Part shown: positions 33,348-35,282 of the stretch, piece after piece
How the letters are laid out: each line of letters begins with the position of its first letter
Position numbering within the stretch: the stretch's first letter is position 1
NCBI GenBank assembly: GCA_009703275.1
Contig: WLGJ01000004.1
Coordinates: 1-35,282 of the forward strand
Direction of reading: 5' to 3'
Source of the DNA: Actinomycetota bacterium
Lineage (GTDB): Bacteria > Actinomycetota > Acidimicrobiia > Acidimicrobiales > Acidimicrobilacustridaceae
Length of the DNA stretch: 35,282 nucleotides
Notes under the pieces: generated by a model
Database searches by the model: none
The model's input: the letters and a program-made list of their open reading frames with translations, nothing else
Told to the model about the DNA's origin: nothing
Made by a program: the position numbers and the translations under genes

Positions 33348-33868
33348 CGCTTCACCGCAGTCGTCGGAGTGGTTGCCTTTGCAACTGTGGTTGGCGTCGT
33401 CTTCGGAGCAACCGTGGTTGCCGTGGCCTTCGGTGCGGCCTTCGGTGTCGGTGCCGGGGGCATTTCGGCCGCACGAGCGTCATCAGTCATCTTGGGTTGC
33501 AGGTAGACCGGCGTCGGCGACGGAATCATTCCAAGCTTCGTTGTGGCAGCTGTCGTGATGTTCTGCGGACTCTGTAATTGTGCAAGCTCGACACGGAGAA
33601 GCTCAGCGCGAGTTTCCGCTTCGGCAATGCGATTGTTGACGCGATCGATGTGCGCCTGTTCCGAAATGATCAAGGTTTGGGCGGCTGCGATTGCGAAAAG
33701 CACAACCACTACTCCGACGACACCAGCAATCAAACCGATACGGCGACGTTCAGGTGCAGTGCGATCGACAAGTCGAAGTCGCGATCGAAGCCCCTCACGA
33801 GTTGACTCCTGTGGTGCGCGAAGATTCGCGGCGCGACGACCTTCTGCGGCAACTCTTGCGCTGGTCAT
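33344..33868 (-). CDS. ftsL: FtsL-like septum formation initiator with Ala/Pro/Thr/Lys-rich C-terminal tail
   Basis: Basic N-terminus, one TM (IGLIAGVVGVVVVLFAIAAAQTLII), coiled coil (EQAHIDRVNNRIAEAETRAELLRVELAQLQSPQNITTAATTKLGMIPSPTPVYLQP); position rsmH-ftsL-ftsI. Confidence 0.85.
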   Translation of the reverse strand: MTSARVAAEGRRAANLRAPQESTREGLRSRLRLVDRTAPERRRIGLIAGVVGVVVVLFAIAAAQTLIISEQAHIDRVNNRIAEAETRAELLRVELAQLQSPQNITTAATTKLGMIPSPTPVYLQPKMTDDARAAEMPPAPTPKAAPKATATTVAPKTTPTTVAKATTPTTAVKR

Positions 33869-34806
33869 GACCGTTCTGCGATTCGAAGACGGGCGCTTTC
33901 AGCACGAGGGTTGCTCTCACGTTCGGCTGCACCTGGTGTGGTTCCGCCGCGACGGACAAGCCGAACCGTCGACGTGGCACCACAAACGCAGGGAAGGTTC
34001 GTGGGGCAGGTGCAACCGCCGGACTCGGCATCACGCATGACCTGCTTGACGATGCGATCTTCGCCCGAGTGGTAGGACAAAACCACCAGACGGCCAGCAG
34101 GATTCAGAGAGTCGATCGCAGCTTCAAGCGCAACGGGAAGTACGCCGAGTTCGTTATTCACTTCAATGCGAATCGCCTGAAATGTTCGTTTGGCCGGATG
34201 CCCGCCTGTACGGCGCGCAGGGGCAGGAATCGCGTCGCGAGTGATCTCTGCAAGTTGTGTCGTGGTCTCAACTGGTCGAGCAGCGATGATCGCTCGGGCG
34301 ATACGTCCAGCGAAGCGCTCATCACCAAACTCACGAAGAACACGGGCAAGAGACTTTTCGTCGTACTCATTAACGACTGTCATCGCACTGAGCGCACGAG
34401 ACGGATCCATTCGCATGTCGAGAGGCGCATCGAAGCGGTAGCTAAAGCCGCGCTCCGCTCGGTCGAACTGCGGAGAGCTCACACCAAGGTCGAAGAGCGC
34501 ACCAACAATTGGCTGACCGGCGAGTTCCGCATCGACGACCGTCGAAAACGAGTCGAAACGGGCCTGCACGGTGCGAGCACGATCGCCAAAGGGCGCAAGG
34601 CGTTCACGAGCAACTGCAAGTGCATCGGGGTCCTGGTCGATACCAAGTACCGAAAGATGCGGGTAGGCCTCGAGAAGAGCAGTTGTATGGCCAGCGCCAC
34701 CGAGGGTTGCGTCGATAACCCAACCAGCCGGGACTGACTCGAAGGCCGCCACGATCTCGTCGAGCATCACCGGGCGGTGGTCGAACGATTCGTGGGCTGC
34801 GGCCAT
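33865..34806 (-). CDS. rsmH: 16S rRNA (cytosine(1402)-N(4))-methyltransferase RsmH (MraW)
   Basis: HRPVMLDEIVAAFESVPAGWVIDATLGGAGHTTALLE, FDLGVSSPQFDRAERGFSYRFDAPLDMRMD, FQAIRIEVNNELG, VLSYHSGEDRIVK. ATG 34804-34806 with GAGAGG SD 8 nt upstream; the frame is open to 35031. Confidence 0.97.
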   Translation of the reverse strand: MAAAHESFDHRPVMLDEIVAAFESVPAGWVIDATLGGAGHTTALLEAYPHLSVLGIDQDPDALAVARERLAPFGDRARTVQARFDSFSTVVDAELAGQPIVGALFDLGVSSPQFDRAERGFSYRFDAPLDMRMDPSRALSAMTVVNEYDEKSLARVLREFGDERFAGRIARAIIAARPVETTTQLAEITRDAIPAPARRTGGHPAKRTFQAIRIEVNNELGVLPVALEAAIDSLNPAGRLVVLSYHSGEDRIVKQVMRDAESGGCTCPTNLPCVCGATSTVRLVRRGGTTPGAAERESNPRAESARLRIAERS

Positions 34807-34814
34807 GACAGATA

Positions 34815-34988
34815 CCTCTCGCTGCTGAGCCAGTCGGCAGAGCCGGTACCGGTCCTCAGCAGTCCCTCGGAACACCGGCGCCCGCCGGGATTTCTCCCCG
34901 GTCGGGCTCGATGGGAAGCGGGCGGAGTAGGGGCCTTCCATCGTGTGTTCCGAGAGACTGCTGAAAATCGGGCGACCGGCTCGGTCGC
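34815..34988 (-). ncRNA. Candidate structured 5'UTR RNA of rsmH (three-way junction plus upstream hairpin; possible mraW-motif-like cis element)
   Basis: P1 34856-34875/34945-34964 (20 bp, one G.U); P2 34909-34918/34935-34943 (9 bp, one bulge); P3 34880-34889/34897-34907 (10 bp, one bulge); P0 34972-34978/34982-34988 (7 bp perfect). Noncoding gap between mraZ stop and rsmH start. Confidence 0.7.
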
Positions 34989-35039
34989 AGGAGTGGTCCT
35001 TTCGTTGGTGGGTCAGGGACAAAGGGGACATGACACGGA

Positions 35040-35282
35040 CTAGAGCCCCAAAGACGTAACGGCTTGGGTGAGGCTGTCGTCGGCGAGTGATGCTTGGTCG
35101 TTCCAGCGACCTGCGTTCCAGATCTCGATGCGACCGAAGGCGCCAATGACGACGGCTTCTTTGTCGAGCGAGGCGAAATCGCGCAAGCGCTGGGGAATGG
35201 TGATGCGGCCTTGAGAATCGGGTCGGACTTCGTGGGCGTTGGCGGCGAAGGCGCGGAGCGATTCCTGGCTGGTTTCACCCGA
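35040..35282 (-). CDS. mraZ: Transcriptional regulator MraZ, C-terminal part (5' end outside window)
   Basis: Minus strand from the window edge: SGETSQESLRAFAANAHEVRPDSQGRITIPQRLRDFASLDKEAVVIGAFGRIEIWNAGRWNDQASLADDSLTQAVTSLGL then TAG; second SpoVT/AbrB-like repeat of MraZ (D-x-Q-G-R-I-x-I-P). Not in the ORF track because no start is in the window. Confidence 0.93.
   Translation of the reverse strand, partial: SGETSQESLRAFAANAHEVRPDSQGRITIPQRLRDFASLDKEAVVIGAFGRIEIWNAGRWNDQASLADDSLTQAVTSLGL

Follow-up and report, generated by a model that had tools for sequence, protein, structure and literature searches.

Between the 3' end of an upstream gene and rsmH, the window—the whole stretch of 35,282 nt that was analysed—carries a structured leader RNA composed of a long basal helix (P1) and two hairpins (P2 and P3). 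The features of this region, all encoded on the minus strand, are the following:

33865–34806, minus: rsmH, encoding the 16S rRNA m4C1402 methyltransferase, start ATG at 34806; assigned from tblastn matches in relatives
34815–34820, minus: GAGAGG, the Shine-Dalgarno sequence of the displaced rsmH start, read directly from the sequence
34822–34829, minus: downstream CUCAGCAG, the competitor strand proposed in an earlier note on this DNA; not conserved
34842–34973, minus: the whole leader RNA element, matching covariance model R1 with 130.3 bits (E 4.9e-31), this leader being part of the training set of R1
34849–34875, minus: P1 3' arm, GAGGGACUGCUGAGGACC here, degenerated from the GGGGCUGCnnAUG of many relatives, which holds the rsmH Shine-Dalgarno sequence and start codon
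34880–34907, minus: P3 hairpin with the conserved loop GGAGAMAW, identified by covariation
34910–34942, minus: P2 hairpin, identified by folding and covariation
34919–34932, minus: P2 loop CCCUACUCCGCCCG, the core of which (CUCCGCCC, 34927–34920) is nearly invariant and resembles 16S rRNA positions 1396–1405 around C1402
34945–34971, minus: P1 5' arm of the basal helix, with 26 pairs in the leader L001 and helix covariation
35040–35282, minus: 3' end of the upstream gene (stop at 35042–35040), putatively mraZ by gene order and sequence type

Two open frames cross this region on the minus strand. The rsmH frame is open through the entire leader (33865–35031, giving 388 amino acids from an ATG at 35031), such that annotation pipelines may wrongly lengthen rsmH, and a second frame over the leader is open from 34856 to 35281.

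The leader in the window has a folding z-score of -6.1. In a set of 62 aligned leaders (alignment A1), with a structure of 28 pairs in P1, 8 in P2 and 9 in P3, 92.0% of the cells were paired, compared with 80.0% in shuffles. Compensatory changes were found at 38 of the 45 pairs of the three helices, the compensatory cells numbered 364 against 117.6 in shuffles, and none of 500 shuffles matched the leaders on any of these measures; a control in which the partners were slid by 1–3 columns gave only 35–45% pairing. In P1, 26 of 28 pairs had changed on both sides; eight of the nine P3 pairs carried compensatory changes, as did four of the five outer pairs of P2—with the inner three varying on one side only. 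Moreover, an unguided RNAalifold prediction recovered P1 and the outer part of P2, with compensatory changes in 30 of its 33 pairs. The leader is a real folded RNA with a conserved secondary structure, its compensatory changes going beyond the controls, and the P1/P2/P3 fold from which the earlier note set out is thus confirmed by both folding score and covariation.

P1 contains 24–28 near-perfect pairs in most loci and is partly conserved in sequence (GCAG/CUGC), and P3 is absent from locus L092 and from several class-level families. We also observed that the loci of families in which P3 is missing (L193, L196, L207–L214, L235–L237, L243, L244 and L249–L255) have an extended P2, followed by a short conserved GCCAGCGC before the P1 3' arm—which takes the form GCCAG in AT-rich genomes. 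We dropped the idea of a kissing interaction between the P2 and P3 loops (CUCC with GGAG), as four loci (L050, L056, L067 and L068) alter the P3 loop with the CUCC of P2 unchanged.

To describe the distribution of the element, genomes were searched with R1, which matched 242 of 296 Acidimicrobiia genomes. In a phylum-wide sample, likewise of 296 genomes, 19 matched, 15 of them belonging to Acidimicrobiia; the four matches outside the class (G414, G476, G486 and G534) were weak, had no rsmH alongside and were taken as chance. In each of the 154 class loci that were inspected closely, rsmH follows the element. Among 19 class genomes that contain rsmH without an R1 match, two (L313 and L314) carry the element on inspection; in most of the others, the mraZ coding sequence runs close to rsmH and there is no leader, indicating that the element tends to be either kept together with its loop or lost as a whole. 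Additionally, 30 genomes of other actinobacterial families held no comparable leader besides the known mraW type, and the window itself is placed in Acidimicrobiia by the named public records that contain the P2 hairpin: nearly all come from this class or from unplaced actinobacterial metagenome-assembled genomes (MAGs), the kind of record that supplied most of the sequences analysed. We take the element to be a cis-acting leader RNA of the rsmH operon that is spread across the class Acidimicrobiia and matches no Rfam family, and a search of the literature outside subscription papers found no description either of it or of RsmH autoregulation. As a side observation, three MAGs titled Bifidobacterium breve (L108, L120 and L140; CAMCTY010000003.1, CAMCTW010000018.1 and CAMAYJ010000003.1) carry the Acidimicrobiia leader, and judging from their sequence these titles look wrong.

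The most constant part of the element is the P2 loop, with CUCCRCCC present in 148 of the 154 loci; this motif also anchored the count, so the frequencies at its individual positions hold only given its presence. In the AT-rich genomes (L249–L255) the loop core is kept, and the surrounding outer stems change with compensation. When the loop was compared with the whole 16S rRNA gene, the best ungapped 10-nt match was the C1402 segment (ACACCGCCCG against ACUCCGCCCG), identical at 9 of 10 positions and unique. C1402 is the base methylated by RsmH (PMC5053481, PMC10828496). Composition-preserving shuffles gave P values of 0.0125–0.0325 for the width-10 match and of 0.01–0.05 overall; at a width of 8, the match was not significant (P 0.13–0.32). 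Antisense pairing of the loop to 16S rRNA was also considered and set aside as uninformative, since 7-nt matches occur at several places in the 16S sequence.

Turning to the basal helix, the P1 3' arm contains an rsmH start codon in frame in 56 of the 154 loci, no more than 16 codons ahead of the conserved N-terminal block of the protein; a few rows in this count were scored on a GTG just after an ATG, and in these the ATG also lies in P1. The usual form of this arrangement is GGGGCUGCnnAUG (GGGG-CUGC-nn-AUG), with the Shine-Dalgarno sequence at normal spacing. Such loci are scattered among distantly related families, with AT-rich genomes of ~1 Mb (L249–L255) included, and this spread makes the arrangement plausibly ancestral. 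The remaining 98 loci, the window among them, have the rsmH start outside P1—where the AUG of the helix is often mutated and, in the genus of the window, the start is displaced 43 nt downstream of P1. The helix is still maintained in these loci, and masking of the start thus cannot be its only role. In two of the displaced-start loci (L024 and L041), the AUG of P1 opens an out-of-frame reading frame of 13 and 19 codons, respectively, the stop of which abuts or overlaps the probable start of rsmH; this layout could reflect translational coupling in some displaced-start species.

The upkeep of P1 where the rsmH start lies outside it is better explained by the main rival account than by masking. 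According to this alternative, RNase III would cut the long P1 duplex, part mraZ from the rsmH message and free the start region, with a factor at the P2 loop tuning the cutting. A duplex of 24–28 pairs suffices for RNase III, and P1 is long enough in this respect. However, a bare duplex needs no almost invariant loop, and an enzyme that acts on the duplex only would not require the partial conservation of GCAG/CUGC in the helix. On balance, we regard processing by RNase III as somewhat unlikely.

A different link between the fold and rsmH had been proposed in the earlier note, namely a switch in the window in which CUGCUGAG, at the end of the P1 3' arm, pairs either within P1 or with the downstream CUCAGCAG and thereby controls the rsmH ribosome-binding site. 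The sequence elements it named are all in place on the minus strand: CUGCUGAG at 34862–34855 and CUCAGCAG at 34829–34822, forming eight of eight Watson-Crick pairs; CGAGAGG at 34821–34815, followed by the ATG at 34806; UCAGCAG of the P1 5' arm at 34964–34958; and, for a second alternative pairing, CGCCCGC of the P2 loop at 34924–34918 and GCGGGCG of the P3 3' arm at 34885–34879. The perfect 8-bp complementarity is mildly unusual for a single locus, with a chance of about 1%: shuffles of the 44 nt leading up to the ATG produced a perfect complement to the P1 3' arm, 8 nt or longer, in 42 of 5000 cases (0.8%). Energy and conservation argue against the switch. With P1 closed, the minimum free energy is -107.7 kcal/mol, against -97.5 kcal/mol with the alternative enforced—that is, the alternative is disfavoured by 10.2 kcal/mol. 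The Shine-Dalgarno sequence is mostly occluded in both folds, so the alternative stem brings no obvious on/off change in its accessibility. Moreover, CUCAGCAG is intact only in seven closely related genomes (L001–L007, at least 95% identical to the window in the leader region). The competitor is lost within the same genus: in L008–L013, CUCCGCAG replaces CUCAGCAG with the P1 arm unchanged, reducing the longest complement from 8 to 4 nt, and among the related loci compared no equivalent was found in L014–L030 and beyond. The pairing of the P2 loop with the P3 3' arm lacks covariation (66.5% of cells paired against 66.6% in shuffles, with one compensatory cell). We reject both alternative pairings; the proposed control of the rsmH ribosome-binding site by CUCAGCAG is very improbable, and what the earlier note had picked out is accidental complementarity beside a genuinely interesting feature. 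Its broader idea, a connection between the RNA fold and translation of rsmH, survives in another form, as the start codon located inside the P1 3' arm in 56 of the 154 loci implies that the helix would mask the ribosome-binding site on its own and make a downstream competitor unnecessary.

Drawing these observations together, our best explanation, to which we give about an even chance, is an Acidimicrobiia rsmH leader RNA that acts through masking by P1 and a trans-acting factor at the P2 loop. The architecture consists of the long basal helix carrying P2 with its nearly invariant C-rich loop ACUCCGCCCG, usually accompanied by P3, just upstream of rsmH. In the species with the start in P1, the helix would keep translation of rsmH silent or weak, and the frequency of initiation at the start site would be set by a trans-acting factor that reads the P2 loop. 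The candidate factor is RsmH, proposed because the loop resembles its substrate site (16S positions 1396–1405, with C1402 as the target); such mimicry of the substrate site would give feedback control of rsmH. We offer autoregulation by RsmH itself as a tentative hypothesis. Against it, METTL15, the human homologue of RsmH, is reported to bind RNA in vitro via the backbone and without sequence specificity (PMC10828496). In the genus of the window, where the start lies 43 nt past P1, any link to translation would have to be indirect or relaxed. The near-perfect 25-bp P1, much more stable than the usual switch helices, counts against this explanation. We regard as somewhat unlikely the full form of the proposal, an undescribed RNA family in which RsmH would regulate itself via a P2 loop imitating 16S 1396–1405, with the loop possibly methylated and with rsmH and the downstream cell-wall genes coupled to the amount of unmodified 30S subunit.

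A metabolite riboswitch could also be imagined, with the three helices serving as the receptor for a small molecule—e.g., SAM or a precursor of the cell wall—the binding of which would either release P1 or lock it. The three-helix layout, the conserved loops and a basal helix masking the ribosome-binding site are in keeping with this possibility. However, P3 is dispensable, as seen from its absence in L092 and several families; conservation is concentrated in one apical loop and not in a pocket at the junction; the basal helix is very long; and no Rfam riboswitch matched in the window. We consider a riboswitch improbable. Returning to the preferred explanation, a class-wide leader that often lies over the rsmH start and has a loop like the target of the enzyme provides a concrete, testable handle and, if the explanation is true, would tie expression of the division cluster to ribosome maturation.

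Several known systems offer points of comparison. By analogy, the proposed logic would be shared with the autogenous leaders of ribosomal proteins, in which a leader resembling an rRNA site covers its own ribosome-binding site; the Acidimicrobiia leader differs from these in that the candidate regulator is an rRNA methyltransferase, the binding of which is putative. In the literature searched, we found no published example of an autogenous rRNA-mimic leader for an rRNA methyltransferase. Translational riboswitches that mask the ribosome-binding site likewise have a basal P1 containing the Shine-Dalgarno sequence and the start codon, whereas the Acidimicrobiia leader has a P1 of 25–28 bp, no pocket-like conservation at the junction and no known ligand. 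In Rhodobacter sphaeroides, the mraZ end of the division and cell-wall (dcw) cluster also has a structured 5' RNA, an extended leader that involves the small RNA UpsM (PMC5089854). Going by the title of that report, the UpsM leader precedes the dcw cluster, whereas the Acidimicrobiia leader occupies the gap between mraZ and rsmH.

The closest counterpart by position is the mraW RNA (RF01746), a leader of Actinomycetales at the same location, for which no function was assigned in its description (Weinberg et al. 2010, PMC2864571), and which has been seen in Corynebacterium transcripts (PMC4046766, PMC5784534). Searches with the mraW model placed none of 99 relatives above the cut-off of 50 bits, and the leader in the window gave no mraW match even at E values of up to 5; as a positive control, the model recovered the known mraW genomes in their own taxa. 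Sub-threshold mraW matches lie on other contigs or at other positions than the rsmH leader wherever both are known. One such match (31.9 bits, loop GUGCACUUCCCC) lies at 1498–1618 on the minus strand of L031, on a contig of genome G022 other than the one with rsmH, and could represent either a second element or a hairpin that is there by chance. Other Rfam matches in the window, at E values of 0.1–5, were to eukaryotic families and are attributed to chance. The Acidimicrobiia leader could nonetheless be a form of mraW RNA derived from a shared ancestral rsmH leader and diverged past recognition by the model. The same gene position, the long hairpin and the C-rich apical loop (UACUUCCCC in mraW RNA, UACUCCGCCC in the Acidimicrobiia leader) favour this origin, against which stand the failure of the mraW model to match any of the Acidimicrobiia leaders, the different loop, the extra hairpin and the lack of intermediate leaders among the 30 genomes of other actinobacterial families. 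The two RNAs are alike in outline and share their position, and we consider a common origin less likely than not; it would be compatible with the best explanation. Like the Acidimicrobiia leader, the mraW RNA is structured, lies directly upstream of rsmH (mraW) and forms a long hairpin with a conserved C-rich apical loop. The mraW RNA is a single long hairpin with the loop ACUUCCCC, whereas the leader described here has the loop ACUCCGCCCG (CUCCRCCC), usually contains P3, is confined to Acidimicrobiia and often has the start codon inside its basal helix. The Acidimicrobiia leader also points to a direct experiment on the mraW RNA of Actinomycetales.
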